A DNA stretch of 64,000 nt from Bacillus sp. es.036 (GTDB taxonomy: Bacteria; Bacillota; Bacilli; Bacillales; Guptibacillaceae), in the NCBI RefSeq assembly GCF_002563635.1, contig NZ_PDIZ01000001.1, forward strand, positions 1,550,001 through 1,614,000, read 5' to 3'. Made by a program: the position numbers and the translations under genes. Under the pieces are notes generated by a model. That model was not told where the DNA came from, did not search any database, and was given only the letters and a program-made list of their open reading frames with translations. Positions 2,291 to 23,327 of the stretch are shown piece by piece; position 1 is the first letter of the stretch; the number at the start of each line of letters is the position of its first letter.

Positions 2291-2320
2291 AAAAAGCGAG
2301 GGTTCTCCTCGCTTTTTTTT
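2291..2320. terminator. bidirectional intrinsic terminator between convergent genes
   Basis: AAAAAGCGAGG pairs with CCTCGCTTTTT around a short loop, flanked by A and T runs on both sides. It can end the ketopantoate reductase-like gene on the plus strand and the 15-gene catabolic operon on the minus strand. The stop codon of the phosphotriesterase-family gene lies in its T-run. Confidence 0.9.
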
Positions 2321-3317
2321 ACGCTTTCACACTAGATTTTGATAAAAATAGCTTTTTCGGATTTTCTTCAAATACAATAGTTATCGTTTCATCCGAAATA
2401 CCCGCTGCCTTCAATTTAGGAATTATCTCTTCAAAAAGATACACCGGCTGCCAGTTTGCCATGATTTTTTCGACTTGTTCCGGTAGAACAGGGGGGCGTC
2501 CCATCCAGTAGTTAACGGTATCATGTGAGAGCATAATTTGTTTTTCATATCCGCTATTCAGTAATCCAATTAACGTAATGAGACGCTCTTTATCGTAAGG
2601 CGCGCCAACGAGTCCCTGTATCCCAAAACGATCGAACCCGATGTTCACTCCCCATTCTAATGTTTTTAAATGGTATGCGGCATCTGTATTGCCACACATA
2701 TGACCGATGATAATGGACTGTGGATTTACGCCATCTTCCACAAGCAGCTTCGCCTGGTCAGGACCCATTGTCCCTTCCTGAGTATGGGTAAGTATTGAAA
2801 TGCCTGTTTCTTTATGAACTCGAGCAGCCGCTTTAAAAAACATCTTCTCATAACCAGTTATCTGATCTTTACTGGACGCTAACTTGATAATGCCTGGTTT
2901 AATTCCAGTCGTTCCAATGCCGTCTGTTATTTCTTTTATAAACATTTCGTAAATATCTTCTTCCGCCGTACCAAGACCTTGCCTAAACTTGAAATAAGGC
3001 GTTGCTCCTTCTCCTTCATAGTAGTAACCTGTCGCACAAATAATTTGAAGGCCAGTCTCTGTTGATATTTTCTGAAGAAGCTCTGGATTTCGCCCACATT
3101 CATTTGGTGTTGGATCTACAACGGTTTTCACACCGTGTGCCATAACACTTTCAGCCACTGAAATCCCAACTCGAAGCGCCTCCTGGAAATCAAAAGCACC
3201 AAGTGAAATATCGCCACTAAATCCAGGATAACCAAAAGCAAAATGTTCGTGAACTAGTGTTTTTCCCAACTGATCAATCGCGATTGGTCCAGTAACCGTT
3301 TCGACTGTTTTCCCCAC
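2319..3317 (-). CDS. phosphotriesterase family metallohydrolase (possible lactonase)
   Basis: 332 residues, the usual length of the phosphotriesterase (PTE/Php) family in the amidohydrolase superfamily. The full binuclear metal set can be placed: H23 and H25 (VHEHF), K145 as the carbamylated lysine (IIKLASS), H178 (LTHTQ), H206 (IGHMC) and D266 (LSHD). Members hydrolyse phosphotriesters, lactones or remain uncharacterised; several act as lactonases. Translation starts at a GTG 9 nt after GGGAG inside the end of the upstream acyl-CoA ligase gene, so the two are translationally linked. As the last gene of the acyl-CoA catabolic operon, a role in opening a lactone or ester substrate before CoA activation is a reasonable inference. 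The exact substrate is unknown. Confidence 0.85.
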   Translation of the reverse strand: MGKTVETVTGPIAIDQLGKTLVHEHFAFGYPGFSGDISLGAFDFQEALRVGISVAESVMAHGVKTVVDPTPNECGRNPELLQKISTETGLQIICATGYYYEGEGATPYFKFRQGLGTAEEDIYEMFIKEITDGIGTTGIKPGIIKLASSKDQITGYEKMFFKAAARVHKETGISILTHTQEGTMGPDQAKLLVEDGVNPQSIIIGHMCGNTDAAYHLKTLEWGVNIGFDRFGIQGLVGAPYDKERLITLIGLLNSGYEKQIMLSHDTVNYWMGRPPVLPEQVEKIMANWQPVYLFEEIIPKLKAAGISDETITIVFEENPKKLFLSKSSVKA

Positions 3318-3318
3318 C

Positions 3319-4986
3319 TTACTTCACTCCCTCTGCTTTTTGACGTTCGTTATCCTGGAGCTTTCTCCATAAAATCTTACCACTACTCGTTGTTGGAAAA
3401 GCGTCCATAAACTCAATCATTCTTGGGTATTTATAAGCAGCCATCTGCTCTTTAGACCATTCGATAATCTCTTCTTCTGTAACTTTTCCTTTATCATTTT
3501 CATTCAAAATGACGAAAGCTTTCACTGTTTCGCCGCGCCTTGGATCCGGTACACCAACGACACAAGCTTGTTGAACAGCTGGATGCTTATATAAAATTGA
3601 TTCTACTTCTGTTGGCCAAACTTTAAAGCCTGAAGCATTGACCATGCGTTTCACACGATCAATCATAAAGAAGTATCCCTCTTCATCATAGCGACCGATA
3701 TCTCCTGTTCGGAAAAAAGACTTTCCATCAAGTTCAATGAATGAATTCCGGTTTTCATCGTCACGATTGTAATAGCCATCAAACACCTGTGGACCGTTCA
3801 CAATGATTTCGCCAGGCTCACCAGGACCGAGCTCCTTCATTGTATTTGGATCGATGACACGTGCATCTACATCGAATGACGGTACACCAAGACACTGGAG
3901 TTTAGGAAAATCTGGTGGGTTGAAATGCGTATGAGAAATCGTTTCAGATAACCCGTATCCTTCAATAAATCGTAATCCAGTTAAGTTGTATAATTTCTCT
4001 CCAACCGCAGCTGGTAAGGGCGCGCCTCCCCCTGCAAGTACTTTCAATGATGAAATGGAGTAGTTTGGTAGATTTGGATTCGAAAGAAAATCGATTAACA
4101 TCGTACTAATATTCACCCAATTAGCAACTTCATATTGTTCAATGTATTTCGCTGCCAAATTGCGATCCCAACGTGTCATAATAACCATTGGTGCCCCGCT
4201 ATAAATCGGTGCATGCATACTATGAAGCATTCCGGTTACGTGAAACAATGGAAGCGTTACAAGATGCATGCCATCCGCGGTAATATTCATCCACTGAGAG
4301 GCGCCTACCGCATTCGCTTGTAACGTGCGATTCGGATGGATACACCCTTTTGGTAAACCTGTTGTACCAGAAGTATATGGCATAACCGCAACGTCATCGA
4401 TCGTACGTACATATTCTCCAGGTACATTCGAATGATGAATCGCATCTTCCCACGTATAGTGGTTCGGCTTATTTACTCTTTTTTCCAGTAAAGCCACTTC
4501 CGCAGGCATATCACTTTCATTACCAGCATAGTGAGAATAGGCTGCCGTAATCACATTAGTAAGAGTTGTTGTGTTCACTAAAGGCTCTACTTTCTCATAT
4601 AACTCCTGACCCACAATAGCAGTTTTAATTTCGCAATCTTTAATATAAAAAGATAGCTCTTCTGCTGTTAACATTGGGTTAATTGGAACAACGATGGCGT
4701 TAGCTCTTAAAATTGCATAGTAGCTAATTACGAACTGTGCTGAATTTTGCATAAAAAGAAGAACATTTTCTCCCTCTTTTACATGCAACTGTTCAAGAAA
4801 TGCTGCAGTCTGATTGACTTCATGAAGTAACTCTTTATACGTCATCTTTGCTCCATAATAAAGAATCGCTTCTTTATTTGGGTACCGTTTAGCAGATACT
4901 GTGAGGTTATCATAAATGGTTGTTTCAGGAATGGTTAGTGAATAGGGTACTCGTTTTGGCCAGAATTGAAAATGATTTGTTTGCAT
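3319..4986 (-). CDS. AMP-forming acyl-CoA synthetase (long-chain-fatty-acid--CoA ligase-like)
   Basis: 555 residues of the ANL superfamily; it activates a carboxylic acid to acyl-CoA through an acyl-AMP. The P-loop-like motif is YTSGTTGLPKG, followed by YGLSET, then TGDIGRYDEEGY with the hinge RVKRM, and the C-terminal lysine motif TSSGKILWRKL. It is one of three such ligases in this island (also 17747-19360 and 24984-26612), which differ clearly in sequence, so each may take a different chain or branched acid. The gene follows the ABC importer genes and overlaps the control region of the phosphotriesterase-like gene by adjacency. Acid specificity cannot be read from sequence. Confidence 0.92.
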   Translation of the reverse strand: MQTNHFQFWPKRVPYSLTIPETTIYDNLTVSAKRYPNKEAILYYGAKMTYKELLHEVNQTAAFLEQLHVKEGENVLLFMQNSAQFVISYYAILRANAIVVPINPMLTAEELSFYIKDCEIKTAIVGQELYEKVEPLVNTTTLTNVITAAYSHYAGNESDMPAEVALLEKRVNKPNHYTWEDAIHHSNVPGEYVRTIDDVAVMPYTSGTTGLPKGCIHPNRTLQANAVGASQWMNITADGMHLVTLPLFHVTGMLHSMHAPIYSGAPMVIMTRWDRNLAAKYIEQYEVANWVNISTMLIDFLSNPNLPNYSISSLKVLAGGGAPLPAAVGEKLYNLTGLRFIEGYGLSETISHTHFNPPDFPKLQCLGVPSFDVDARVIDPNTMKELGPGEPGEIIVNGPQVFDGYYNRDDENRNSFIELDGKSFFRTGDIGRYDEEGYFFMIDRVKRMVNASGFKVWPTEVESILYKHPAVQQACVVGVPDPRRGETVKAFVILNENDKGKVTEEEIIEWSKEQMAAYKYPRMIEFMDAFPTTSSGKILWRKLQDNERQKAEGVK

Positions 4987-5012
4987 CTTGTTAGATCCCC
5001 TTTCAATTTCTC

Positions 5013-6248
5013 TTAATTTTCCACTTTCACAACTTTCCCATCTTCAACTGCTCCAATAGCAGGTTTCCAGTCAAATGCACCGCCATTATAAATACCTGTT
5101 AAGTGCCAAACCATCTTTTCATCAGGTAGTGATTGGATAGCTGCATCCATGCTCTCCATAATCTTCGTTGGATCTTCGACTGAACCTGATTCAGACATGG
5201 CATTGACAATGACATGCATCGCTTGATAGTTAAATGCACCTTCAGCAGTTGGAATTCGATCAAAACGTTCTTTGTATTGGCTTATAAACTCTTCTGCACC
5301 TGGCGCATCGCTATCAATAATTGGTAGTGCTCCAATTGTCCCCTCTAACTGATCAAGTCCACCTAGTACCGGCTCAATTTCCTCAATTTTTGCTTGGTCC
5401 ATCAGCATAAAACCACCCTCAAAGCCTAATTCTCTAGCTTGTTTAATAACGAGGGCTGTTGGCTGTGATGGTCCCCCTACAAAAAGCACGTCAGGATTGT
5501 TGCTTAATGCTTTTGTGACAATTGAGAAAAAGTCAGTATCTTTACTAAAATCAATGGACCCTTCAAAAACGACTTCCCCACCATTCTCTTCCCAAACTGG
5601 TTTTAGTGCTTCTGTCCAGTCTTTGCCGTACTGAGATGAGGTTGGTAGCATTGCAATTTTCTTACCAAACCGTTCCATTTGATAGTTTGTAAAAGCTTCA
5701 GGATATGCGCTGTACGCAGGTGGAATTCCTAAAGTAAGTGAATTATCCTGTTCCATAATTTTGGGTTCACTTGTATAGGCTGCGATTAAAAATTCTTCTT
5801 GTTCATTAAATACTTGTGTTGCGAAAACACCACCGCTATGTGGAACAAAAACAATCGGCGTATCATTTTCTTGAACAAGCCTTCTCGCGTTCGTTCCTGT
5901 TTCATTAGGCAAATACTGATCATCAAGCGTTACGAGATTGACCCCGTATTTTTTGCCATCAACTTCAAAGCCTTCCTTGTTAATTTCATCTACAGCCATC
6001 TCTAAACCACTTAACGTATTCTCTCCGTAGTAAGCTGCTGGTCCACTTAAAGGACCACTAAATCCAATATTCAAAGTATTTTCGAATGTCGTATCTGCAC
6101 TTGTATCCTTGCTCGTATCTTTCGGTTCACTTGTATTTGAAGCCCCTTCATTACTAGAGTTACTAACAGAACCTGCCGCACATCCCGCCACTACGATCAT
6201 TCCGACCAACATCACAATGTAAACAAAAAGCTTTATCCCGATTCTCAT
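5013..6248 (-). CDS. Liv-type ABC transporter substrate-binding lipoprotein
   Basis: About 411 residues. The N-terminus MRIGIKLFVYIVM leads a hydrophobic stretch to the lipobox VVAGC, so this is an exported lipoprotein anchored outside the membrane. The mature part has NIGFSGPLSGPAAYYGENTLSG and VNLVTLDDQY, typical of periplasmic-binding-protein type I receptors of the branched-chain amino acid/amide (HAAT) uptake family. The ATG at 6248 follows AGGGGGA by 5 nt; a TTG at 6266 lies upstream of that site. It lies just downstream of the two ATPase and two permease genes. Placement among beta-oxidation genes suggests that it binds the acid or lactone that the island degrades and not leucine-type amino acids (inference). 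Confidence 0.9.
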   Translation of the reverse strand: MRIGIKLFVYIVMLVGMIVVAGCAAGSVSNSSNEGASNTSEPKDTSKDTSADTTFENTLNIGFSGPLSGPAAYYGENTLSGLEMAVDEINKEGFEVDGKKYGVNLVTLDDQYLPNETGTNARRLVQENDTPIVFVPHSGGVFATQVFNEQEEFLIAAYTSEPKIMEQDNSLTLGIPPAYSAYPEAFTNYQMERFGKKIAMLPTSSQYGKDWTEALKPVWEENGGEVVFEGSIDFSKDTDFFSIVTKALSNNPDVLFVGGPSQPTALVIKQARELGFEGGFMLMDQAKIEEIEPVLGGLDQLEGTIGALPIIDSDAPGAEEFISQYKERFDRIPTAEGAFNYQAMHVIVNAMSESGSVEDPTKIMESMDAAIQSLPDEKMVWHLTGIYNGGAFDWKPAIGAVEDGKVVKVEN

Positions 6249-6280
6249 TGTTTTCCCCCTATTCAAATCGATTCCGTTTT

Positions 6281-6988
6281 TTATGCCCCAATATAAGCTT
6301 TTCGAATTTGATCATTAGACAAAAGTTCCTCTTTACTTCCTTCAAGAACAATCTTGCCACTTTCAATCACATAGCCACGGTTAGAAATTTGTAGTGCAGC
6401 ATTGGCGTTTTGCTCAGCTAGAAGAATAGTTGTTCCCTGTTCATTGATATCCTCAATAATATGAAACATTTGCTCCACAATGAGGGGAGCAAGTCCTAAT
6501 GAAGGTTCATCTAGTAAAAGAACTTTCGGTTTGGCCATTAATGCTCGTCCAATCGCTAACATCTGCTGTTGACCACCACTTAGAGAACCTGCTGCCTCAT
6601 GTCGCTTATCATATAAAATAGGAAAAAGGGAATACACCTCCTTTAAGCTCTGTTCCACTTCTTTGCGACGTTTTCGATGAACAAAGCTGCCCATTTTCAA
6701 ATTTTCGTAAACGGACATTTGTGGAAACAACTTTCTACCTTCAGGACATTGCACGATCCCTTCTTTCACTAAAGAGTGTGGCGATTTTCCAGTTAACTTA
6801 CGATCCATAAAAACCACATCACCAGAAGCTGGTTTCATCAAACCACTGATCGTACGAAAGATTGTACTTTTTCCAGCTCCATTTGCACCAAGTAAGACCA
6901 CTGTTTCACCTTTTTTTACTTCGAGTGAAATATGATGAAGTACGGAAGAAGCGCCATAGTTCACATTAATATTGTTTAACTGGAGCAT
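6281..6988 (-). CDS. Liv-type ABC transporter ATP-binding protein (LivF-like)
   Basis: About 235 residues. Walker A is GANGAGKSTIF, the signature is LSGGQQQMLAIGRAL and Walker B is KVLLLDEPSLGLAP, followed by the LivF-typical LAEQNANAALQ. The ATG at 6988 lies 8 nt after GGAGG, inside the last codons of the LivG-like gene (23-nt overlap), which implies translational coupling. Readings that extend upstream to 7072 lie within the LivG frame region and are not needed. It works at the cytoplasmic face as one of two ATPases for the importer encoded by the neighbouring genes. Confidence 0.93.
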   Translation of the reverse strand: MLQLNNINVNYGASSVLHHISLEVKKGETVVLLGANGAGKSTIFRTISGLMKPASGDVVFMDRKLTGKSPHSLVKEGIVQCPEGRKLFPQMSVYENLKMGSFVHRKRRKEVEQSLKEVYSLFPILYDKRHEAAGSLSGGQQQMLAIGRALMAKPKVLLLDEPSLGLAPLIVEQMFHIIEDINEQGTTILLAEQNANAALQISNRGYVIESGKIVLEGSKEELLSNDQIRKAYIGA

Positions 6989-7745
6989 GCGCTTCACCTC
7001 CGAGATAGGCTTGAATAACCGCTTCATTTTGACGAATTTCATCAGGTCGCCCTTCTGCAATTTTCTTCCCATGATTTAAGACAACGATTTGATCAGCAAG
7101 GCTCATGATCATTGGCATCTTATGTTCGATTAAACAGACAGTAATACCGTGATCTGCCATTTTTCTCATTAAATATGCTAGCCCATCCGTCTCGTCAGGA
7201 TTAACTCCAGCGGCCGGTTCATCAAGAAGAACCAGTTCTGGATCGGTTGCTAATGCTAGAGCAAAGGCAAGTCTCTTCTTCTCTTCCTGCGTAATAAGTG
7301 AGACAGGATGCTCAACAACATGCATCATTTCAACAAATTCCAGCGCGTCGAGTGCTTTTTGATAAGACCTTTTTTCTTCCTCTTTTTCTCTTTTCGTTCG
7401 AAAAATCGCATCCCATATCCCTGATTTTGTGCGCAATCTATGTCCGATTAGAACATTATCTAGAACGGTCGATTGCTCAAACAAGTTAGTCGTTTGAAAC
7501 GTTCTGCCGATTCCAAGACGCGCAATTTGCTGTGGGGGCATTTTTGTAATATCACGATCTTTGAAAAGAATTTTCCCTGAAGAAAGCGGATGGATCCCAC
7601 TAATTAGATTAAAAAAGGTAGATTTCCCGGCACCATTTGGACCGATAATTGCCGTAATCGTACCTTTTTCAACCGATACACTTACATCTTCAACGGCTGC
7701 TAATCCCCCGAAACGTTTTGTAATCCCCTCTGTAGAAAAGAACAT
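6966..7745 (-). CDS. Liv-type ABC transporter ATP-binding protein (LivG-like)
   Basis: 259 residues. Walker A is GPNGAGKSTFF and Walker B is ELVLLDEPAAGVNPDET, the latter with the LivG-typical AAGxNPxE wording. The usual LSGGQ signature is changed: the segment before Walker B reads SLITQEEKKRLAFALALAT where LivG proteins have a GxQR-type signature, so the signature motif is divergent. The start at 7745 shares its base with the end of the permease gene upstream. Together with the LivF-like protein it forms the ATPase pair of the importer. The divergent signature may weaken or alter ATPase control at one site (inference). Confidence 0.9.
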   Translation of the reverse strand: MFFSTEGITKRFGGLAAVEDVSVSVEKGTITAIIGPNGAGKSTFFNLISGIHPLSSGKILFKDRDITKMPPQQIARLGIGRTFQTTNLFEQSTVLDNVLIGHRLRTKSGIWDAIFRTKREKEEEKRSYQKALDALEFVEMMHVVEHPVSLITQEEKKRLAFALALATDPELVLLDEPAAGVNPDETDGLAYLMRKMADHGITVCLIEHKMPMIMSLADQIVVLNHGKKIAEGRPDEIRQNEAVIQAYLGGEAHAPVKQY

Positions 7746-8752
7746 TACCCTGCCTCACCTACTTTCCTTTTCACATCATGTTCTTCATTCGCTATCTTTA
7801 CTCTTTGCTGTTTCTTTCTTTGCAAATAGCCGTTTATACTTCCAGTGATTCCACGCGGATAGTATAGAACTAATAGAACAACAACCGGACCAAAAATAAG
7901 CATCCGATATTCTTCAAGAAACTGTAATGATTGAGTAAGTGAAATGACAATAAGCGTTCCGACAAGAGGACCTGCAAGCGTTCCAATGCCACCCACTAGA
8001 AGATACATCAGCATTTCAAATGTTACGGTAATCGCTGATATTTGCGGACCGATAAAACGGATAAATGAAGCATATAACGCACCTGAAAGACCGGCAAATA
8101 AAGCTGATAAGGTAAAAGCTAACAGTTGGTTTTTCATAATGGAGATCCCAATTGTTTTGGCAAGTTCTTCACTGTTTCTTATCGCAATAAACGTTCGTCC
8201 TAGAAGAGAATGAACAATGCGGTAACAAAGGAAAATTGTAAAGGTTAGAAAGAACAAAGCAAGGTAATATTGAGAGGTTAATGTATCAAACGTAATGGGC
8301 CCTATGTTGCTTGGTGCTGGTATCCCAATTAATCCACGAACACCACCCGTTAAGCTATCCCACTTGTCTATTAAAAGATAGACAATGACACCTACACACA
8401 TGGTGTAAATAGCAAAAAAATGAGATTTTGTTCGAAGAGCAATCACTCCAACTAGAGCCCCGGCAATAGAAGTGATAAGAACTGCCAGAAGGAGAGATAG
8501 CCAATAAGACAAGCCTGCTTTGGTTGTTAATAGACCAAGTCCATATGCTCCAATTGCAAAAAAACCAGCATGTGCGAGAGACAAATACCCTACGTACCCT
8601 GAAATAATATTAAATCCGTAAACCGCGATCGACCAAATAAACACAAGCGTAAGTAATTGGAGAACATACATATTTGGAAAAACGAGGGGAAATAAAACAG
8701 CAGCAACGGCAACGATACCGATTAGCACTCGCTTCGATAAGACATTCAGCAT
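7745..8752 (-). CDS. Liv-type ABC transporter permease (LivM-like)
   Basis: 335 residues with many hydrophobic segments. The block FNIISGYVGYLSLAHAGFFAIGAY is the family hallmark, and EAA-loop-like sequence is seen around RNSEELAKTIGIS and KNQLLAFTLSALFAGLSGAL. It is one of two permease subunits of a HAAT-family importer in the cell membrane. Its start overlaps the stop of the LivH-like gene (TAATG), and its end touches the start of the LivG-like gene. This tight packing gives a co-translated transporter set. Confidence 0.92.
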   Translation of the reverse strand: MLNVLSKRVLIGIVAVAAVLFPLVFPNMYVLQLLTLVFIWSIAVYGFNIISGYVGYLSLAHAGFFAIGAYGLGLLTTKAGLSYWLSLLLAVLITSIAGALVGVIALRTKSHFFAIYTMCVGVIVYLLIDKWDSLTGGVRGLIGIPAPSNIGPITFDTLTSQYYLALFFLTFTIFLCYRIVHSLLGRTFIAIRNSEELAKTIGISIMKNQLLAFTLSALFAGLSGALYASFIRFIGPQISAITVTFEMLMYLLVGGIGTLAGPLVGTLIVISLTQSLQFLEEYRMLIFGPVVVLLVLYYPRGITGSINGYLQRKKQQRVKIANEEHDVKRKVGEAG

Positions 8753-9615
8753 TACTGAACCCCCTTCGTAAATAACCCAGTTGGCTTGGCTGTTAGAATG
8801 ACTACGAGTAGAAGAAACGCAATAACGTCTTTATAATCAGATGATATGTACGTTGCCCCAATGCTTTCGGTTAGGCCAAGCAAATAACCACCAAGAATCG
8901 CTCCGGGGATACTTCCCATTCCACCGATGATGATGATAACGAAAGCTTTCATAATGACCAGGTTTCCCATAGTCGGGAAGACAAGATTAATAGGGGATGC
9001 TAGTGATGCGGCTGCAGCTGCTAATCCACCGGCGATCGCAAAAGTAAGCCAAGCCACCTGATTTGCATTAATACCTACAAGGAACGCGCCCTCTCGATTT
9101 TGAGCCATTGCGACAATGGCTGCTCCTATCATTGTTTTCGTTAAGAAAAAATGTAGTGCAAGCATAAGGATTACAGCAGCAACTATAATTAAAAGACGTT
9201 GTAACGTTACAGTTAGACCAAATAAATTAACGACCGATCCATAAGGAGTGTCCATTCTGTGGTATTCCGTTCCCCACATAAATTGACCAAATGCTTCTAG
9301 AAAAAGGAGAATCCCGATGGCAGCAACCATCATCCTCATCCCATCTGCGCCTTCTAACTTTTTAAATATTAGCTGCTGTGTGACAACTCCAAGAAGAGCA
9401 ACAACAGCCACTGAAGCAATAATGGCGATCCAATAATGAAAACCAAAACCAACCATCATCATTAAAGTAATATAAGCACCAACCATATAAAAAGCACCGT
9501 GTGCAAAATTGGGAACATGTAAAATGCCAAAAACAAGTGTTAAACCAAGGGCGACAAGCGTGTAAACGCTTCCAATTGTAAGTCCGTTAAAAATCTGCTG
9601 GATAAGGAGCTCCAT
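8752..9615 (-). CDS. Liv-type ABC transporter permease (LivH-like)
   Basis: About 288 residues. The N-terminus ELLIQQIFNGLTIGSVYTLVALGLTLVFGIL and HVPNFAHGAFYMVGAY identify the LivH branch; GGMGSIPGAILGGYLLGLTES near the C-terminus is also typical. Two adjacent ATGs (9618 and 9615) follow AAGGAGG; I prefer 9615 on spacing. Longer readings to 9681 lie upstream of this site. It is the first transporter gene, separated from the isomerase gene upstream by 115 nt that contain a strong hairpin. Confidence 0.92.
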   Translation of the reverse strand: MELLIQQIFNGLTIGSVYTLVALGLTLVFGILHVPNFAHGAFYMVGAYITLMMMVGFGFHYWIAIIASVAVVALLGVVTQQLIFKKLEGADGMRMMVAAIGILLFLEAFGQFMWGTEYHRMDTPYGSVVNLFGLTVTLQRLLIIVAAVILMLALHFFLTKTMIGAAIVAMAQNREGAFLVGINANQVAWLTFAIAGGLAAAAASLASPINLVFPTMGNLVIMKAFVIIIIGGMGSIPGAILGGYLLGLTESIGATYISSDYKDVIAFLLLVVILTAKPTGLFTKGVQ

Positions 9616-9693
9616 CATCTTCCTCCTTCTATTAAATGAGATCCAGACTAGGGGGACGGCGGACTTATGAAGGGGATTCAAGATGTAGGAATA

Positions 9694-9723
9694 AATCTGG
9701 ATTGAAAAACTTCAATCCAGATT
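9694..9723 (-). other. 13-bp perfect hairpin inside the catabolic operon
   Basis: AATCTGGATTGAA and its exact complement TTCAATCCAGATT are separated by a 4-nt loop. It lies directly after the isomerase stop codon and before the LivH-like gene. There is no U-run after the stem on the transcribed (minus) strand, so a normal intrinsic terminator is unlikely. An RNA processing or stability element that sets enzyme versus transporter expression is possible. Confidence 0.7.
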
Positions 9724-9730
9724 CAGAAAA

Positions 9731-11311: not shown

Positions 11312-11326
11312 TCTCCCCACCGCTTT

Positions 11327-13811: not shown

Positions 13812-13819
13812 ATAATCTC

Positions 13820-14884: not shown

Positions 14885-14938
14885 ATGCCACACTCCTGAT
14901 TACATAATATTCAGTCATCAACCCTTAAAAAAAACAAG

Positions 14939-15343: not shown

Positions 15344-15361
15344 TAAACTTCCTCTTTTCTA

Positions 15362-16138: not shown

Positions 16139-17022
16139 TAATTTTTCACTCCTTCTTTTGTATAGTCATACCAGCCTTTTCCTGTTTTTCTTCCAAGTGT
16201 TCCAGCTTTCACTTTATCCTCAATGGCTTTTGAGGGCTTGTCTTCTGGATTTCCAGTTTCGTTATAACGTTGCTGCATCACGAAATACCCAACATCTATT
16301 CCAGATAGATCCATTAATTCAAATGGCCCAATCGGGTGATTAAGAGCTTTGCGACAAATCAAGTCGATATCTTGGAAATCAGCAATTCCTTCTTCGTACA
16401 GATACATCGCTTCTTTTTGCAATGCACCTAAAATCCGATTCGCAACGAATCCTGAAATTTCTTTTTTTAGTAATACCCCTGTTCGATTAATACGCTCGCA
16501 AACCGCCATCGTAAGCTGGGCTGTTTCTTCAGAAGTTGCTTCACTCATTACCACTTCTACACAGTCCATAACTAGTGGTGGGAAGAAGAAGTGCATGTTC
16601 ACGACTTTCTCTTTACGATTCGTTGCGGATGCAATTAATGAGTTCACAATGGTAGAACTATTAGTTGCTAGAATCGTATTCGGATCTGCTAATTGATCGA
16701 GCTTTTCAAACACTTCACGCTTCACATCTAATTTCTCAACTATGGCTTCAATAATGAAGTCAGCTCTTACCGCTGCTTCTTCAAGATTTGTTGAAAATTG
16801 AAGTCTTCCAAATGCTTCTATCTTTTGATCCTCAGTAATTTTACCTTTCTTAACCCACTTTGACATTATTCCTTCAAGCTTTTCACCTGCATCTTTTAGA
16901 GCAGCTTCATTGATATCCTGAATCATGGTTTCATACCCACCAAGCGCACAAAGCATACCAATCTGATGGCCCATAGAGCCAGCTCCGAGTACTGTTATCG
17001 TTTTGATTTCTTCTACTTTCAT
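16138..17022 (-). CDS. 3-hydroxyacyl-CoA dehydrogenase
   Basis: 294 residues, the usual length of the monofunctional NAD-dependent enzyme (HBD type). The N-terminal Rossmann loop is VLGAGSMGHQIGML. Catalytic region NMHFFFPPLVMDCVEVV carries the family His, with the Ser in the NSSTIVNS segment upstream and EISGFVANRIL after it. The C-terminal domain HPIGPFELMDLSGIDVGYFV is typical. It is the first gene of the long unit; AAGGAGG precedes its ATG, and the palindromic operator lies 18 nt upstream of the start codon. It oxidises 3-hydroxyacyl-CoA to 3-ketoacyl-CoA. Confidence 0.94.
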   Translation of the reverse strand: MKVEEIKTITVLGAGSMGHQIGMLCALGGYETMIQDINEAALKDAGEKLEGIMSKWVKKGKITEDQKIEAFGRLQFSTNLEEAAVRADFIIEAIVEKLDVKREVFEKLDQLADPNTILATNSSTIVNSLIASATNRKEKVVNMHFFFPPLVMDCVEVVMSEATSEETAQLTMAVCERINRTGVLLKKEISGFVANRILGALQKEAMYLYEEGIADFQDIDLICRKALNHPIGPFELMDLSGIDVGYFVMQQRYNETGNPEDKPSKAIEDKVKAGTLGRKTGKGWYDYTKEGVKN

Positions 17023-17039
17023 TCTGTTTCCTCCTTAAA

Positions 17040-17059
17040 GTAACTAACCGGTTAGAATG
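17040..17059. promoter_or_regulatory. palindromic operator upstream of the 15-gene unit (putative TetR site)
   Basis: The core CTAACCGGTTAG (17044-17055) is a perfect 12-bp palindrome. The 20-bp window agrees at 16 positions with the consensus drawn from the three island sites, CATACTAACCGGTTAGTATG. It lies between the putative promoter and the ribosome binding site of the hydroxyacyl-CoA dehydrogenase gene, a position suited to repression. Confidence 0.75.
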
Positions 17060-17066
17060 TATAATT

Positions 17067-17081
17067 CGCAAGCGCTTTCAT
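17067..17081. promoter_or_regulatory. possible cre (CcpA) site
   Basis: On the minus strand the sequence ATGAAAGCGCTTGCG agrees with 14 of 15 positions of the cre consensus WTGNAANCGNWNNCW. It lies just upstream of the operator at 17040 and beside a TATACA -10-like element. Carbon catabolite repression of the catabolic unit is plausible. Confidence 0.45.
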
Positions 17082-17088
17082 ATGTTTT

Positions 17089-17114
17089 GGAAAAGGAAAG
17101 CTTATCTGCTTTCC
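17089..17114 (-). terminator. weak intrinsic terminator after the TetR gene
   Basis: GGAAAGC pairs with GCTTTCC around a 6-nt loop, followed on the minus strand by TTTTCC. The stem contains the TetR stop codon. The T-run is short, so some read-through into the 15-gene unit is likely. Confidence 0.55.
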
Positions 17115-17671
17115 TCAATCCCATTTAAAACCATATCAACAAAAATACTTGCTACTTCTTTATCTGACACTGGACCGTTCGGCTTGTACCATTGATAGGT
17201 CCAATTTGTAATACCTAGAATGGCAAACGTGACGATATCAATATTGAGATCTTTTCTAAACTCTCCATTTTTGACACCTTGTTTTAGTAAATCTTGAAAG
17301 TAATAGCGGATTTGATCACGCTTTGGAAGGATTTCAGCGAGATTTTCTTCTTTTAAATTCTTCATTTCTCGAAAGAAAACTCGCGCACTGTGCCCTTCTA
17401 ATTCAACGTTATGGATGAGCATATAAACCATATCATAGAGTTTTTCTTTACAACTCTTAGACACATCTTCTAAAATATCTTTCTGTTGCTTAATCATGCC
17501 ATCGATATAAGAAGAATGGATGTCCATTAACAATGCTTCTTTACTCTTAAAATAATAGTAGAACGTTCCTTTTGTAACACCGATTGCGTCCACAATATCT
17601 TGAATCGACGTTTCGCTAAATCCATTTTTTTCAAATAACTCAATACTTTTAACAGTTAGTTTGTGTTTCAT
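17102..17671 (-). CDS. TetR/AcrR family transcriptional regulator of the island
   Basis: 189 residues. The N-terminal helix-turn-helix is complete: SIQDIVDAIGVTKGTFYYYFKSKEALL. The C-terminal half (VFFREMKN, FAILGITNWTYQWYKPNGPVSDKEVA) resembles the ligand-binding domain of TetR proteins that sense acyl-CoA thioesters, such as KstR2-like regulators, and differs from Bacillus FadR. It lies 75 nt downstream of the acyl-CoA ligase gene, without a clear terminator between, so it may be co-transcribed from the operator-controlled promoter at 23386-23414 and autoregulated. Its own upstream region has a different dyad, ATCAATCTACATTGAT (one mismatch), at about 17691. It is the only regulator in the island and the obvious candidate to bind the three CTAACCGGTTAG-like palindromes. 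Confidence 0.9.
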   Translation of the reverse strand: MKHKLTVKSIELFEKNGFSETSIQDIVDAIGVTKGTFYYYFKSKEALLMDIHSSYIDGMIKQQKDILEDVSKSCKEKLYDMVYMLIHNVELEGHSARVFFREMKNLKEENLAEILPKRDQIRYYFQDLLKQGVKNGEFRKDLNIDIVTFAILGITNWTYQWYKPNGPVSDKEVASIFVDMVLNGIEESR

Positions 17672-17746
17672 GCTAGTACCCTCTCAATCTATCAATCTAC
17701 ATTGATTAAGATTATATCATATGGAGGTTACTTCAAAGCATCCAAC

Positions 17747-19360
17747 CTATACCTGACGTGCTTCATCACGGATGGAACGTCTTAATATTTTCCCTACACT
17801 CGTTTTAGGAAGCTCATTACGAAATTCTATAATTTTCGGAACCTTGTAAGGCGCCATTTCATCCTGACAGTAAGAAGTAACCTCTTCCTCCGTCAAAGTT
17901 GCTCCTGGTTTCTTCACAATTACTGCCTTCACAGTCTCACCGCGATAAGGATCTGGGACACCTACAATTACTGCCTCCATAATACTTGGATGTTCATAAA
18001 GAACCTCTTCAATATCGCGTGGGTAAATGTTATAGCCGCTAGCAATAATTAGATCTTTTTTTCGATCAATGATTGAAACATAACCATCCGCATCCATTTT
18101 TGCGATATCTCCTGTAAACAACCATCCGTCACGCAAGGTGTTTGCTGTTTCTTCTGGCAAATTCCAATACCCCTTCATCACCTGTGGCCCTTTAATAATA
18201 AGCTCTCCGGATTCACCAAACGGCACCTCTATTTTCCCTTCACCTAAATCCACAATTTTGTACTCTGTCGAAGGAAAGCCAATGCCGACACTCCCAGGCT
18301 TACGCTCACCAAAAGGGGGATTAACATGCGTCGTCGGAGAAGCTTCACTTAACCCGTATCCTTCAAGAATTTTAGCTCCAGTTTTTCGTTCAAACTCTTT
18401 CATTAATCCAACCGGCATCGGTGCGCTTCCACTATTACACGTTCGGATGCTTCCAAGATTATATTTTTCCGCATCTGGATGATTCGTTAAAGCGACATAC
18501 ATTGTTGGAACACCAGGAAACATGGTTGGTTTCTCTGTTTCTATTGTTTTTAAAACTTCATTAACATCGAACTTAGGCAAAATTACGCTCTCTGCCCCAA
18601 TTCGAATCGATAAATTCATACAGGAGGTCATTCCAAAAACGTGAAACAAAGGAATGACTGTTAAACATTTTTCTTCACCAAACGTGAATTCATCTTTAAA
18701 AAATTCGAGACATTGCTCAACATTTGCAATCAAATTACGGTGAGTTAGCATAGCTCCTTTCGATCTTCCAGTCGTTCCGCCAGTATACTGAAGAACGGCA
18801 ACGTCCTCTTTAGGATCAACCGAAACCTCTTTTAGTTGCTCCTGTGCACTTTGAACAAATTGGTCAAAAGTAAAATCAGGAGCGAAATTCGCTTCAGTAG
18901 GCTGAAGAGAAACAACAATTACATTCTTCACATTCGTTTCGTTCTGTATGGCTTTCAACCTTGGATAAAGAGCATCATAGATTACGATCGTTTCCGCTCC
19001 AGAATCAGCTAATATGTACTGAAGTTCACGTTCTACAAGCATCGGATTGATCTGGGTAATCGTACCTCCCGCTTTTAACACGCCATAATAACTAATCGCA
19101 AACTGAGGACAATTTGGTAACATAAGCGCAACGCGATCCTTTGGTTGCATTTCACAAGTATGCTGAAGGGCTGATCCGAAAAGAGATGAAAGATGTCCAA
19201 GTTCCCCGTACGTTATTTTTTTATGATAAAAAGAGAGTGCGACCTGATCTGGATAGTCTTTTACTGTTTTCGATAACATGTCTTGTAGCGATACATTTGG
19301 GATATCAATTGTACTAGAAATGGAGTCAGGGTAATGCTTTGTCCAACTTTTTTCGTTCAT
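17747..19360 (-). CDS. long-chain-fatty-acid--CoA ligase (AMP-forming)
   Basis: 537 residues of the ANL superfamily. Motifs in order: YTGGTTGRSKGAMLTH (AMP binding), EGYGLSEASPTTHVNPP, GWLFTGDIAKMDADGYVSIIDRKKDLI (hinge) and the C-terminal lysine motif KTSVGKILRRS. The sequence is close to Bacillus LcfA-type ligases, which activate fatty acids for beta-oxidation. It is the last enzyme gene of the 23327-17747 unit, 19 nt or less after the SDR gene, with the TetR gene next. Confidence 0.93.
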   Translation of the reverse strand: MNEKSWTKHYPDSISSTIDIPNVSLQDMLSKTVKDYPDQVALSFYHKKITYGELGHLSSLFGSALQHTCEMQPKDRVALMLPNCPQFAISYYGVLKAGGTITQINPMLVERELQYILADSGAETIVIYDALYPRLKAIQNETNVKNVIVVSLQPTEANFAPDFTFDQFVQSAQEQLKEVSVDPKEDVAVLQYTGGTTGRSKGAMLTHRNLIANVEQCLEFFKDEFTFGEEKCLTVIPLFHVFGMTSCMNLSIRIGAESVILPKFDVNEVLKTIETEKPTMFPGVPTMYVALTNHPDAEKYNLGSIRTCNSGSAPMPVGLMKEFERKTGAKILEGYGLSEASPTTHVNPPFGERKPGSVGIGFPSTEYKIVDLGEGKIEVPFGESGELIIKGPQVMKGYWNLPEETANTLRDGWLFTGDIAKMDADGYVSIIDRKKDLIIASGYNIYPRDIEEVLYEHPSIMEAVIVGVPDPYRGETVKAVIVKKPGATLTEEEVTSYCQDEMAPYKVPKIIEFRNELPKTSVGKILRRSIRDEARQV

Positions 19361-19378
19361 GCTTGCACCTCCGAGTAA

Positions 19379-20131
19379 TTAAAACGTTAATCCGCCTCCG
19401 TCAACAAGAAGACTTGTTCCTGTAACGTAAGAAGCTTCATCCGAGACTAGAAATAGCACGGCGTTTGCAATTTCCTCTGGTTGTCCTACCCTTTTAAGCG
19501 CGTTGGCTTTTGAAATAATGGGCCATTTACGTTCATCTTCTCTCCATGGTGTCACAATGTTTGTATCAATTACTCCAGGACAAACGGCATTCACTCGAAT
19601 GTTCTTGCTTCCGTATTCGAGAGCAGCATTTTTTGTTAATGTAATAACCCCACCTTTGGATGCATTATAAGGGGCCATATATTTTTTCCCTTTAAAACCC
19701 AATAGACTTGAAGTGTTAACGATGGAGCCACCATTTCTCTTTTCCATCAATGGAATACTAAATTTCATTCCAAGAAAAACACCCTTCAAATTTATCGACA
19801 CTACACGGTCCCATTCCTCAACAGAAACATCCGCTAATTTTACTTCTTCGTTACTAACACCTGCATTATTAAAAAGAATGTCGAGGCCACCATAGTGCTG
19901 TTCACACTCTTCTACAAGCGCTTTCATTTCTCCTTCATTTGCCGTGTCCGTTTTTACAAATATGGCATTTCCACCCATTTTACAAACTTGTTCGACAGTT
20001 TCTTCTCCAGATTCTGCGTGAATATCAGAGACGACTACCCTTGCTCCTTCATCAGCAAAGCGAATCGCGGTTGCTCGACCGATTCCTCCACCGCCTCCAG
20101 TGACAATTGCAACTTTATCCTGCAGCCTCAT
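19379..20131 (-). CDS. SDR family oxidoreductase (glucose 1-dehydrogenase-like / 3-ketoacyl reductase-like)
   Basis: About 250 residues. TGGGGGIGRATAIRFADEGA is the cofactor loop; DIHAESG points to NAD preference (Asp after the second strand); NNAGVSN, NTSSLLG and YNASK complete the catalytic set. The C-terminus GTSLLVDGGGLTF is typical. The ATG at 20131 lies after AAGGAGG; the reading from 20191 starts inside the thiolase gene. In this pathway it may act as a hydroxyacyl or alcohol dehydrogenase. Its exact substrate is not readable. Confidence 0.9.
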   Translation of the reverse strand: MRLQDKVAIVTGGGGGIGRATAIRFADEGARVVVSDIHAESGEETVEQVCKMGGNAIFVKTDTANEGEMKALVEECEQHYGGLDILFNNAGVSNEEVKLADVSVEEWDRVVSINLKGVFLGMKFSIPLMEKRNGGSIVNTSSLLGFKGKKYMAPYNASKGGVITLTKNAALEYGSKNIRVNAVCPGVIDTNIVTPWREDERKWPIISKANALKRVGQPEEIANAVLFLVSDEASYVTGTSLLVDGGGLTF

Positions 20132-20142
20132 TTCATCCCTCC

Positions 20143-21312
20143 TTATTCTCGCTCTAATACGGTTGCTATTCCTTGACCTCCACCAATACAAGCAGTGATT
20201 AGCGCATATCTTCCTTCTCGACGATCAAGCTCATAGATCGCTTTTGTTGCTAAAATAGCTCCAGTTGCACCTAATGGGTGACCATGTGCAATTGCGCCTC
20301 CGTTAACATTCACAACATTTTCATTCATTTTCAATTCACGATCACAAGCAAGTACCTGGGCGGCAAAAGCTTCATTAATCTCAATCAAATCCATTTCCTC
20401 AAGAGATAATCCGCTTTGCTTCATCAATTTTTGCGTAGCTGGAACTGGTCCGATTCCCATTATATTCGGATCGACTCCGCTAACCGCATATCCCCTCACT
20501 ACCGCGAGTGGTTTTAATCCAAGGCTTTCAGCTTTTTCGCGCGACATAACAATAAGGGCTGATGCTGCATCATTTAAACCAGAACTTGACCCCGCTGTGA
20601 CGCTTCCTCCTTTCTTAAATACGGGAGGTAATGTAGCAAGACGTTCAATCGTTGTTTCAGGTCTTGGATGTTCATCCTTTGTTACTTTAATCGGATCGCC
20701 TTTTCGGACAGGTACATGAACGGGAGCAATTTGGGAGTCAAAATAACCTTCAGCCATTGCTTTCCCCATTCGTTCTTGACTTCTTTGTGCAAAAGCATCT
20801 TGTTCTTCTCGCGTAATGTGATATTTTTCGGCCAAATTCTCCGCCGTAATCCCCATAGGAGGATCCCCAATTTCCTCAGGAGAAAGGCGTGATTTCATGA
20901 ATCGTGGTGGCATCGTACTAAATGGCTTAGATGGTTTTTCCATTAAGTATGGCGCCTGACTCATGCTTTCTGCTCCACCTACGACATAGACATCTCCATC
21001 TCCTGATTTAATCGCTTGTGCAGCCAGATTTATCGCATTCAATCCCGATCCACACTGGCGGTCAATCGTTAGTCCTGGAATTGTAAGAGGAAGACCGGCC
21101 TGCAACGCTGTTAGCCTCGCAATATTCCCTCCTCCACCAATAACGTTTCCAAAGATCACGTCATCGATTGATTCAACATCTAAATTGATACGTGCTACTG
21201 CTTCTCTAAGCGCGATTGCGCCAAGCTCATGTGCTTGAATTCCAGAAAACGCACCTCCCTGTCTTCCGATCGGTGTTCGGACGCTAGAGACAATAACTGG
21301 ATCACGATTCAT
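20143..21312 (-). CDS. thiolase (acetyl-CoA C-acyltransferase)
   Basis: About 389 residues. The N-terminal nucleophile is in RQCGSGLNAINL; INEAFAAQ, GGAIAHGHPLGATG (catalytic His) and CIGGGQG (second Cys) complete the thiolase set. It cleaves 3-ketoacyl-CoA with CoA in the last beta-oxidation step. The ATG at 21312 follows AAGGGGG; an ATG at 21330 overlaps the stop of the upstream SDR gene and lacks a site. It sits in the operator-controlled unit between two SDR genes. Confidence 0.94.
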   Translation of the reverse strand: MNRDPVIVSSVRTPIGRQGGAFSGIQAHELGAIALREAVARINLDVESIDDVIFGNVIGGGGNIARLTALQAGLPLTIPGLTIDRQCGSGLNAINLAAQAIKSGDGDVYVVGGAESMSQAPYLMEKPSKPFSTMPPRFMKSRLSPEEIGDPPMGITAENLAEKYHITREEQDAFAQRSQERMGKAMAEGYFDSQIAPVHVPVRKGDPIKVTKDEHPRPETTIERLATLPPVFKKGGSVTAGSSSGLNDAASALIVMSREKAESLGLKPLAVVRGYAVSGVDPNIMGIGPVPATQKLMKQSGLSLEEMDLIEINEAFAAQVLACDRELKMNENVVNVNGGAIAHGHPLGATGAILATKAIYELDRREGRYALITACIGGGQGIATVLERE

Positions 21313-21329
21313 ATAATTTTCCCCCTTCA

Positions 21330-22103
21330 TTACATTGCATGTTGTCCACCATCGACAATTAAGATATCTCCCGTTACGTAATTCGAAGCATTTGATGCAA
21401 GAAAAAGCGCCGCACCTTTCAGATCATCGTCAGTTCCAAATCGATTCAGTGGGGTCGTTTCTAGCATCCTTTCACCACCAGCGTCAATTAAACCTTTGGA
21501 CATTTTTGTAGGGAAAAAGCCCGGTGCTATCGCATTAACATTGATATTATAGCCCCCCCACTTTACAGCAAGGTCTTTCGTAAATGTAATCACTGCACCT
21601 TTACTCGTGTTATAACCGATTGCATCCATGTAGCGCGGGTCAGCGCCGCCAAGACCTGCTACAGAAGCAATGTTAATGATCTTTCCACTTTTTTGTTTAA
21701 TCATTTCTTTCCCAACTGCCTGGGCAAATAAGAACGTACCAGTGACGTTAACCTCCATTACTTTGTGCCAGGCTTGAAGGGGCATTTCCACTACAGGTGC
21801 CCCCCAGGAAGCGCCGCTGTTGTTAACGAGAATATCAATATGCCCAAATTCTTTCATTGTTTCATCAACGACATGTTGAACTTGTTCTTGGTTTGTTACA
21901 TCACATTCAAAAGCTAATGATTTTACTCCAGCTTCTTTTAATTCTTCGCTTACAGCTTCACAAGCTTCCCGCTTCCTTGAACAAATCACAACGTTTGCAC
22001 CTGCCTCTGCAAATCCTTCAGCGATTTGCTTGCCAAGCCCTCTTCCTCCTCCTGTTACAATGGCTGTCTTTCCTGTTAAGTCAAATAATTGCATCACGTT
22101 CAT
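21330..22103 (-). CDS. SDR family oxidoreductase
   Basis: 257 residues. TGGGRGLGKQIAEGFAEAGA cofactor loop followed by CSRKRE (Arg residues that usually favour NADPH), NNSGASWG, NIASVAGLGG and YNTSK catalytic residues, and GDILIVDGGQHAM at the end. AAGGGGGAT precedes the ATG at 22103. It resembles 3-oxoacyl-ACP reductase FabG-like SDRs and gluconate dehydrogenase-like enzymes. In ACAD11-type operons an SDR often follows the dehydrogenase, so it may handle a hydroxy or oxo intermediate (inference). Confidence 0.9.
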   Translation of the reverse strand: MNVMQLFDLTGKTAIVTGGGRGLGKQIAEGFAEAGANVVICSRKREACEAVSEELKEAGVKSLAFECDVTNQEQVQHVVDETMKEFGHIDILVNNSGASWGAPVVEMPLQAWHKVMEVNVTGTFLFAQAVGKEMIKQKSGKIINIASVAGLGGADPRYMDAIGYNTSKGAVITFTKDLAVKWGGYNINVNAIAPGFFPTKMSKGLIDAGGERMLETTPLNRFGTDDDLKGAALFLASNASNYVTGDILIVDGGQHAM

Positions 22104-22118
22104 ATCTTATCCCCCTTA

Positions 22119-23327
22119 TCAACGATATTTCTTTAATTCCTGTCTTGCGACTGCACTGCGATGTACTTCGTCAGGACCGTCAGCTAGTCGAAGCGTTCTA
22201 GCGTTAGCCCAGTGAGCTGCTAACGTATAATCATCGCTTACACCCGCACCTCCAAATGCTTGAATGGCTCGGTCAATCACGCGAAGAGCCATATTCGGTG
22301 CAACGACTTTAATCATGGCAATTTCTGCTTTAGCTTCTTTATTTCCAACCGTATCCATCATATAAGCTGCTTTTAATGTAAGCAGTCTAGCCTGTTCAAT
22401 TTCGATGCGAGAATCGGCAATCCATTCTCGAACGACGCCTTGCTCAGAGATTTTGTTTCCAAAAGCTTCGCGACTTTGTACGCGCTTACATAAATCTTCA
22501 AGCGCTCGTTCTGCCGTTCCGATTAACCTCATGCAATGGTGAATTCGTCCAGGACCAAGTCTCCCTTGAGCAATCGCAAAGCCTTTTCCTTCTTCCCAAA
22601 GCATATTTGAAGCTGGCACCCTGACATCTTTATATTCTATTTCTGCATGTCCGTGTGGAGCATGATCATAACCAAAAACGGGTAGCACTCGCTTGATCGT
22701 GACCCCTTTTGTATCAAGTGGTACGAGAATCATAGACTGCTGTTCATGTTTAGCTGCATTTGGATCATTTTTACCCATAACAATGGCAATCTTACATCTT
22801 GGATCTCCGGCACCAGAAGACCACCATTTTGTTCCATTGATAACGTATTCATCGCCTTCGCGTTCGATACGAGCTTGAATATTAGTAGCGTCAGAAGAAG
22901 CCACATCTGGTTCTGTCATTGAGAAACAGGAGCGTATTTCTCCAGAAAGGAGGGGTTCTAGCCATTGTTTCTTTTGTTCGTCTGTACCGTAACGTACTAA
23001 TACTTCCATATTTCCAGTATCAGGGGCGGCACAGTTAAATACTTCAGGTCCAATCATTGATCGTCCCATCACCTCGCAAAGAGGAGCATACTCCGCATTT
23101 GTTAATCCAGCGCCATATTCACTTTCAGGTAGAAAAAGATTCCATAATCCGGCATCTTTCGCTTTCTGTTTCAATTCTTCCATAACTGGTGGAATCCTTG
23201 ACCATCTACTGTCCTGTTCTGATAGCTGTTCTTCATACACTCTTTCATTTGGGTAAACATGTTCATCCATAAATGCAGTTAATTTTTCAAGATACGCTCG
23301 GCAACGCTCGGAATAGTCAAAATTCAT
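22119..23327 (-). CDS. acyl-CoA dehydrogenase, ACAD10/ACAD11-like
   Basis: 402 residues. [89 protein letters not shown] and [16 protein letters not shown] are strikingly like the C-terminal dehydrogenase domain of animal ACAD11 and its bacterial relatives. In that family the enzyme works with an APH-type kinase domain on 4-hydroxyacyl-CoA, through a 4-phosphoacyl-CoA. The kinase partner here is the separate gene at 13820-14884. The gene heads the second unit; AAAGGAG precedes the ATG and the operator lies 28 nt upstream of the start. It is a flavoprotein and would use an electron-transfer flavoprotein or similar acceptor not found here. Confidence 0.92.

Follow-up and report, generated by a model that had tools for sequence, protein, structure and literature searches.

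A predicted 4-hydroxyacyl-CoA kinase and ACAD11-type dehydrogenase island in Bacillus sp. es.036, with a predicted lactonase and a kinase-linked PF04029 phosphatase

A 64,000-nt stretch of Bacillus sp. es.036 (NZ_PDIZ01000001.1, positions 1,550,001-1,614,000; hereafter the window, in whose positions all coordinates are given) carries an island in which a kinase resembling LvaA and ACAD10/11, a dehydrogenase resembling LvaC and ACAD11, a PF04029 phosphatase and a phosphotriesterase-like lactonase were found together with a Liv-type importer, acyl-coenzyme A (CoA) ligases and beta-oxidation enzymes. The island is proposed to degrade 4-hydroxy fatty acids and the gamma-lactones that are their cyclic form, under the control of a TetR-family regulator; we give this reading, whose chemistry is deduced from sequence, a probability of about two in three (0.66). 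The pathway itself is already known. The Bacilli version with its dedicated PF04029 phosphatase and lactonase front end appears to be new, and no description of it was found in the open-licence literature.

An ACAD11-like dehydrogenase had been claimed in the original prediction, and the comparison with the PDB upheld it. The highest scores were obtained with 4hr3 (483 bits) and three ACAD11 chains (474-477 bits), followed by the next best acyl-CoA dehydrogenase at 159 bits. Residues R256, H264, R267 and D383 of the window protein correspond to the phosphate clamp R626, H634 and R637 and the catalytic D753 of mouse ACAD11, and H597 is likewise matched in the printed alignment (counts on the printed ACAD11 chain run one below the published numbers). 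In the mouse enzyme, R626, H634 and R637 were modelled as holding the 4-phosphate, with D753 as the catalytic residue, and replacement of the three clamp residues by Ala or Leu affected the second step most severely (PMC12440821). The full set R626, R631, H634, R637 and D753 was kept in 74/74 dehydrogenases scoring at least 450 bits against the window protein, in 21/21 at 250-450 bits and in 0/13 at 150-250 bits, counts whose rows, as those of the kinase below, are not independent because they include near-copies and the loci were chosen for carrying the kinase. An ordinary medium-chain dehydrogenase was ruled out by the scores of 477 versus 159 bits and by the clamp residues, and the protein is predicted to be of the LvaC/ACAD11 kind. 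A second and more distant class of dehydrogenases (287-361 bits), which keeps the phosphate-clamp residues, was observed near the kinase at other loci (L076, L077, L086, L129, L134, L138, L149 and others); this class may act on different substrates or chain lengths.

The kinase gene runs over 13820-14893 from a GTG start, with an in-frame ATG at 14884, where the original prediction had placed the start, and lies 8 bp from the phosphatase gene and 45 bp from a thioesterase gene. Its best PDB matches were 9o56 (502 bits), which bears the title 'aminoglycoside phosphotransferase', mouse ACAD11 (161 and 157 bits) and 3dxp (151 bits). It scored 22.9 bits against the aminoglycoside APH(3') model (cut-off 205) and 27 bits against the thiamine kinase model (cut-off 299), and no choline-kinase model was present among its three NCBIfam matches. 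An aminoglycoside, choline or thiamine kinase was ruled out by these model scores and the PDB matches. Additionally, D217 and N222 align with the catalytic D220 and N225 of mouse ACAD11, and the Ala that replaces D220 in 8v3u falls in the same column. R82 and R174 correspond to the two ACAD11 arginines proposed to hold CoA, R86 beside the alpha-C Glu and R176, although R86 was matched by description only (the Arg before the alpha-C Glu was counted as chain residue 83, or 84 with the +1 shift). Among the loci gathered, this D, N, R, R set was kept in 134/134 kinases scoring at least 200 bits. A tree of the kinase with APH paralogs of its own genome (seven paralog loci out of 14 other places) gave support of 88/91, which is weak evidence, as two of the seven loci were matched and both had very long branches. 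The APH-type kinase of the original prediction, with its likeness to ACAD10/11, was found where it had been placed and, as far as sequence tells, apart from the aminoglycoside and choline kinases; it is predicted to be a 4-hydroxyacyl-CoA kinase of the LvaA/ACAD10-11 kind.

The gene adjoining the kinase (13056-13811) encodes a PF04029 protein (219.7 bits, cut-off 26.4), which had been overlooked in the original prediction, correct as this was about the kind of the kinase/dehydrogenase pair. This Pfam family is that of the 2-phosphosulfolactate phosphatases (ComB). Its distribution was analyzed in a sample of 299 Bacilli genomes, in which the kinase (E at most 1e-60) was detected in 83 and the dehydrogenase (at most 1e-120) in 77, all of them among the 83. 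Among the 150 strongest of at least 150 PF04029 places, a PF04029 gene lay on the same strand within 200 bp of the kinase at 39/95 kinase places; with a limit of 10 kb, the count was 51/95. When the window protein was used as the query, 33 places in 29 genomes reached at least 137 bits, a threshold placed at a gap in the score list (the next six places scored 121-107 bits, three of them unlinked). All 29 genomes carried the kinase (1e-18; 17 genera, 2e-8), and none of the 33 places was more than 1.8 kb from the kinase, save one in G206 that is beside the dehydrogenase. In the genome of the window, this gene is the single PF04029 match among the matches listed. The phosphatase was also found beside the kinase in 12/14 genomes of the genus and in a relative from another genus (G001).

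In a tree of 89 rows, the 67 kinase-linked proteins, near-copies and two identical pairs included, fell on one side of a branch, and 20 unlinked proteins and two solved ComB structures on the other. This branch had a support of 100/96 and was recovered in 100% of 200 bootstrap trees, and 0/500 shuffles were as low. The unlinked rows were drawn from 98 listed places without linkage, of which 20 were taken, most of them with high scores; given this sampling, the kinase-linked clade may have unlinked members. The two sides share D28, G72, E73, T104-N105-G106-T107, N126, G149, E157, D158 and D180. The ComB residues R31, R74 and N85 were present in 20/22, 22/22 and 22/22 of the unlinked and solved rows, and in 0, 1 and 0 of the 67 linked rows, where they are replaced by L, frequently by Y or E, and by P, respectively (L, Y and P in the window). 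This pattern suggests that the chemistry was kept in the linked clade and that an anion-binding part of the pocket, to which the two arginines and the asparagine would contribute, was changed. No paper connecting the 2-phosphosulfolactate phosphatase family with the 4-hydroxyacyl-CoA kinase pathway was found in the open-licence literature.

The same neighbourhood was also analyzed outside Bacilli in the best 80 of at least 572 kinase relatives from a contig scan, sorted by record title and including short contigs. Phosphatases were located by six-frame search, and the histidine-phosphatase scores are partly circular because this profile was made from first-round hits near the kinase. Within 5 kb and on the same strand, PF04029 was detected at 25/48 Bacilli loci and 2/32 others (both Rubrobacter), and a histidine phosphatase at 0/48 and 9/32, respectively, never together with PF04029. 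Where at least 2.5 kb were available on both sides, the counts were 22/44 and 0/44 for PF04029 and histidine phosphatase in Bacilli, and 2/17 and 7/17 in the other bacteria. On plasmids recorded for Deinococcus gobiensis, D. grandis and Pseudoalteromonas, the histidine phosphatase gene follows the kinase directly, and a similar gene is next after the kinase in an Acinetobacter record; neither phosphatase type was seen in the annotation of a Cytobacillus plasmid locus. One record of the set, L095 (NZ_CP104448.1), is filed as an Acinetobacter baumannii plasmid and is chromosome-sized, with 4.09 Mb and just 37 listed features. In Pseudomonas citronellolis, a histidine phosphatase gene adjoins the lvaA homologue, no lvaB is described in the region, and the enzyme was suggested to dephosphorylate 4-phosphovaleryl-CoA (PMC6692424); the idea of a phosphatase in this position is thus already published for one case. 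In work on ACAD10, free 4-phosphohexanoate was observed to accumulate in cells (PMC11342911). Tentatively, and at somewhat less than even odds, we propose that the kinase pathway repeatedly gained a dedicated phosphatase from unrelated folds: the PF04029 subfamily in Bacilli and Rubrobacter, histidine phosphatases in Deinococcus, Acidobacteria and lineages of proteobacteria, and the fused HAD domain of ACAD10. These would act on 4-phospho acids or 4-phosphoacyl-CoA in proofreading or overflow, and lactonases of the Geobacillus/Deinococcus (GKL) type would be natural suppliers of the pathway.

The phosphotriesterase-fold hydrolase of the original prediction was present and is predicted to be such a GKL-type lactonase: it matched 3f4c (GKL) with 489 bits and 3fdk (DR0930, also a lactonase) with 408 bits, the next group reaching 172 bits. 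The assayed relative GkaP hydrolyzes gamma-hexyl-gamma-butyrolactone and delta-decanolactone with 7.3e4 and 9.9e5 per M per s (PMC4338136). In the Bacilli sample the lactonase (E at most 1e-60) was detected in 21/299 genomes, and the kinase in 21/21 of these (hypergeometric 3e-13, kinship ignored); by genus, 13/13 with the lactonase had the kinase, which is present in 47/119 genera (2e-6, kinship ignored). As a control, 33 genomes with only other PF02126 members had the kinase in 11/33 cases (Fisher 3e-7 versus 21/21, kinship ignored). The lactonase lay within 20 kb of the kinase or dehydrogenase in 10/21 genomes of seven genera, and in three of the genomes (G066, G236 and G245) just 49-109 bp separate it from the dehydrogenase gene. 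The window lactonase is adjacent to ligase 1, and Rhodococcus requires an operon with genes for a lactonase and a CoA ligase to assimilate gamma-caprolactone (PMC6476934). A second phosphotriesterase-family gene of the genome (C1:3078968-3079840) fell under the cut-off of the search with the window lactonase.

The conservation of the island was analyzed in 14 relatives, 13 of the window's genus and one of another (G001, where the hydratase match was 38%). Enoyl-CoA hydratase 1, FadE, the kinase, the 3-hydroxyacyl-CoA dehydrogenase, the TetR regulator and the PRK08213-type short-chain dehydrogenase were at the locus in 14/14, and the ACAD11-type dehydrogenase in 13/14, the stretch of G007 having ended before the gene position. 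The kinase is present in 15/15 genomes of the family. The block of lactonase, ligase 1 and importer was at the locus in 12/14 genomes of the genus, the window's included; it was missing in two (G002 and G013) that keep the kinase and dehydrogenase, which argues for an add-on, and was also absent from the locus in G001. Across Bacilli, 38 kinase loci were obtained from 40 fetched stretches (two without the kinase). A dehydrogenase was nearby at 31, a ligase at 28, the PRK08213-kind short-chain dehydrogenase at 27, PF04029 at 25, a Liv importer at 7 and a lactonase at 4. The kinase, acyl-CoA dehydrogenase, short-chain dehydrogenase and ligase were found together in the window and among its relatives and the Bacilli loci, as they are in the lva operon.

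All mapped genes (2319-26612) are on the minus strand, according to the open reading frame (ORF) list and the NCBIfam and Pfam matches (Table 1). From the promoter side, unit 26612-23431 holds acyl-CoA ligase 3 and the carboxyltransferase subunit. Unit 23327-17747 holds the ACAD11-type dehydrogenase, the PRK08213-type short-chain dehydrogenase, thiolase, short-chain dehydrogenase 2 and ligase 2, and is followed by the TetR regulator (17671-17102). The genes of 17022-2319 are, in order, the 3-hydroxyacyl-CoA dehydrogenase, hydratase, thioesterase, kinase, PF04029 phosphatase, FadE, short-chain dehydrogenase, hydratase, Liv importer, ligase 1 and lactonase. The importer and the beta-oxidation enzymes named in the original prediction were thus recovered by profile matches; two of its three acyl-CoA ligases lie inside the span it had described (2319-23327), and the third lies outside. 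Ligase 3 and the carboxyltransferase subunit have a box of their own, and propionyl-CoA from odd-chain products may be their substrate. An ORF of 310 residues on the minus strand (328-1260) had no Pfam match.

Table 1. Positions of the genes and repressor-type boxes of the island in the window.
Feature	Position	Strand	Evidence
Phosphotriesterase-like lactonase (GKL/DR0930 type), predicted	2319-3317	-	489 bits to 3f4c; PF02126 186 bits
Acyl-CoA ligase 1, adjoins lactonase	3319-4986	-	NF006181 850 bits, above cut-off
Liv-type ABC importer (LivJ, F, G, M, H)	5013-9681	-	NCBIfam and Pfam matches; none above NCBIfam cut-off among the matches listed
Enoyl-CoA hydratase 1	9731-10522	-	Profile match
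Short-chain dehydrogenase 1	10544-11320	-	Profile match
Ordinary acyl-CoA dehydrogenase FadE	11327-13054	-	NF058590 782 bits, above cut-off; start set near 13054, longest ORF to 13150
Kinase-linked PF04029 (ComB-type) phosphatase	13056-13811	-	PF04029 219.7 bits
4-Hydroxyacyl-CoA kinase, predicted (LvaA/ACAD10-11 kinase type)	13820-14893	-	PF01636 141 bits; residues
4HBT-type acyl-CoA thioesterase	14939-15343	-	Profile match
Enoyl-CoA hydratase 2	15362-16138	-	Profile match
3-Hydroxyacyl-CoA dehydrogenase	16138-17022	-	Profile match
Repressor-type box, 1 mismatch	17043-17056		Upstream of genes 17022-2319
TetR-family regulator, PF17932 C-terminal domain	17102-17671	-	Pfam
Acyl-CoA ligase 2	17747-19360	-	Profile match
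Short-chain dehydrogenase 2	19379-20191	-	Profile match
3-Ketoacyl-CoA thiolase	20143-21330	-	TIGR01930 479 bits, above cut-off
PRK08213-type short-chain dehydrogenase, LvaD-like role proposed	21330-22103	-	NF006070 404 bits, above cut-off
Predicted 4-phosphoacyl-CoA processing acyl-CoA dehydrogenase (LvaC/ACAD11 type)	22119-23327	-	PDB similarity, residues
Repressor-type box, 0 mismatches	23358-23371		Upstream of ACAD11-type gene
Carboxyltransferase subunit	23431-24987	-	PF01039 388 bits
Acyl-CoA ligase 3	24984-26612	-	PF00501 274 bits
Repressor-type box, 2 mismatches	26629-26642		Upstream of ligase 3

A palindrome, CATACYRACYRGTYRGTATG, was found upstream of the dehydrogenase gene, mostly about 30-60 bp away, and it matches the published box of the Thermus repressor TTHB023/PfmR, TACCGACCGNTNGGTN, whose operon lists acyl-CoA dehydrogenases, a gluconate 5-dehydrogenase, a ligase and a phosphotransferase (PMC7022988). 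The motif derives from the site that precedes the dehydrogenase gene of the window, and other loci served to test it. Its 14-base core occurred with at most two mismatches in 32/48 dehydrogenase upstream regions, against 0.04 expected per region; 12 of these 32 loci belong to the window's genus, and two boxes 200-300 bp away could be due to chance. With at most one mismatch it was detected at 21/39 loci of another set (0.01 expected), a few species being present in both sets. The boxes of the window precede its three transcription units, and a fourth match (42639-42652) is not part of the island. When CATACYRACYRGTYRGTATG was counted as a plain pattern, allowing up to three mismatches, no enrichment was seen in the whole window (10 found, 10.8 expected), and the case for the boxes therefore rests on position and conservation. 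These boxes suggest that the island is a TetR-controlled regulon, with the repressor and its ligand as putative components. A B. subtilis-type FadR box gave nine matches with at most three mismatches and was dropped, as 12/100 shuffles had as many. Additionally, a CcpA cre-like site, TGAAAGCGCTTGCG, was observed on the minus strand at 17070-17085, just upstream of the 17043-17056 box; catabolite repression of the lower unit would be consistent with it.

The route we propose would begin with the import of an acid or lactone by the Liv-type importer. A lactone would be opened to the hydroxy acid by the lactonase, as its assayed relatives and its genome association suggest, and the neighbouring ligase would form the CoA ester. 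A short-chain dehydrogenase could interconvert the 4-keto and 4-hydroxy forms, after which the 4-hydroxyl would be phosphorylated by the kinase, given its family. The ACAD11-type dehydrogenase would then strip the phosphate to yield the 2-enoyl-CoA, to be finished by the hydratases, the hydroxyacyl dehydrogenase, thiolase and FadE. Stalled 4-phospho acids or 4-phosphoacyl-CoA are the probable substrates of the ComB-type phosphatase, to judge from its linkage and clade; the thioesterase on the other side of the kinase may assist it, and phosphate and acid would be recycled. Finally, the three promoters would be freed by the TetR-type repressor once an intermediate builds up.

Several observations weigh against this reading. 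The lactonase gene was not seen near the kinase or dehydrogenase in 11/21 genomes (eight on other contigs and three far off on the same contig), and the co-occurrence statistics take no account of the relatedness of the genomes. Such a lactonase was not found in 62/83 kinase genomes; therefore, lactones are not a general substrate. GkaP, the nearest assayed lactonase, prefers delta-decanolactone about 14-fold over the sole gamma-lactone tested (PMC4338136), and cells with ACAD10 did not phosphorylate 5- or 6-hydroxyhexanoate (PMC11342911), so the products of delta-lactones would leave by plain beta-oxidation. The phosphatase was not found in 2/14 genomes of the genus (G002 and G013), and the 150 listed places include no linked PF04029 gene for 36/83 kinase genomes; hence it is not obligatory. 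Moreover, the HAD domain of ACAD10, its nearest mammalian precedent, has negligible phosphatase activity (PMC11342911). Of the lactone route in the original prediction, the part that stood is the tie of the lactonase to the pathway, by association in other genera.

The main job of the island could instead be the catabolism of levulinate-type 4-keto acids, by way of the ligase, reduction to 4-hydroxyacyl-CoA by the short-chain dehydrogenase, the kinase and the dehydrogenase, with the lactonase as a side entry. The minimal operon L053 (ligase-phosphatase-kinase-short-chain dehydrogenase-dehydrogenase), which has no lactonase, parallels the lvaEDABC set (PMC6692424), and the PRK08213-kind short-chain dehydrogenase is far more frequent near the kinase than the lactonase. 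However, the lactonase-ligase-importer block is kept in most genomes of the genus, and chain length is not readable from sequence; we consider levulinate-type catabolism a possible but rather unlikely main function. Similarly unlikely is that the phosphatase is no repair enzyme and instead regulates the kinase or is its required partner, in the manner of LvaB or the HAD domain of ACAD10. In P. putida, LvaB is required and binds to LvaA, the P. citronellolis histidine phosphatase stands beside lvaA where no lvaB is reported (PMC6692424), and the HAD domain restrains the ACAD10 kinase while showing negligible phosphatase activity (PMC11342911). Against such a partner role, the linked clade retains catalytic-type residues that ComB also has, and a linked copy was missing from many kinase genomes among the listed places. 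Quorum quenching, in which the lactonase would open N-acyl homoserine lactones, the ligase would activate the freed acyl chain and the kinase would share only a fatty-acid control, is improbable: the QsdA lactonase and QsdC ligase do form one operon under a TetR-like repressor, but this qsd operon also serves gamma-caprolactone (PMC6476934), and the kinase accompanies the lactonase in all 21 genomes that have it. An ordinary ComB making sulfolactate, by chance beside the kinase, is hardly tenable: the PF04029 score is above its cut-off, but the linked proteins form a separate clade with the ComB arginines and asparagine replaced, and all 33 window-type places are beside the kinase or dehydrogenase.

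Among known systems, lvaABCDE of Pseudomonas putida also combines kinase, dehydrogenase, short-chain dehydrogenase and ligase, and the P. citronellolis LA18 cluster likewise has a phosphatase gene beside the kinase (PMC6692424). The window differs in the phosphatase type, PF04029 instead of a histidine phosphatase, in its added beta-oxidation set, Liv importer and lactonase, and in a TetR-family regulator instead of LvaR. Mammalian ACAD10 and ACAD11 share the kinds of kinase and dehydrogenase and the named residues, whereas the window pair is split in two genes and its phosphatase is a separate protein of a family other than the HAD domain of ACAD10. GkaP/GKL and DR0930 are the closest solved relatives of the lactonase; GkaP is described as an isolated enzyme (PMC4338136), whereas the window gene lies within a catabolic island. 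The Thermus TTHB023-TTHB014 operon resembles the island in its TetR-family repressor, enzyme types and box; however, its operon table names no lactonase or ComB-type product (two entries are hypothetical), and the passages that describe it mention no role of a phosphorylated intermediate (PMC7022988). The Rhodococcus qsd operon shares the lactonase, CoA ligase, TetR-like repressor and induction by gamma-caprolactone, and the passages describing it name no kinase/ACAD11 pair (PMC6476934).

These results offer a testable role for a gene pair that is common in Bacilli and easily misnamed, as the title of 9o56 illustrates. A natural role is also offered for GKL-type phosphotriesterase-like lactonases, which are usually discussed as quorum quenchers or detoxifiers. 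The phosphatase subfamily is labelled as a sulfolactate enzyme by Pfam; its real substrate is probably a 4-phospho acid, and it bears on the reason why ACAD10 has a phosphatase-like domain.

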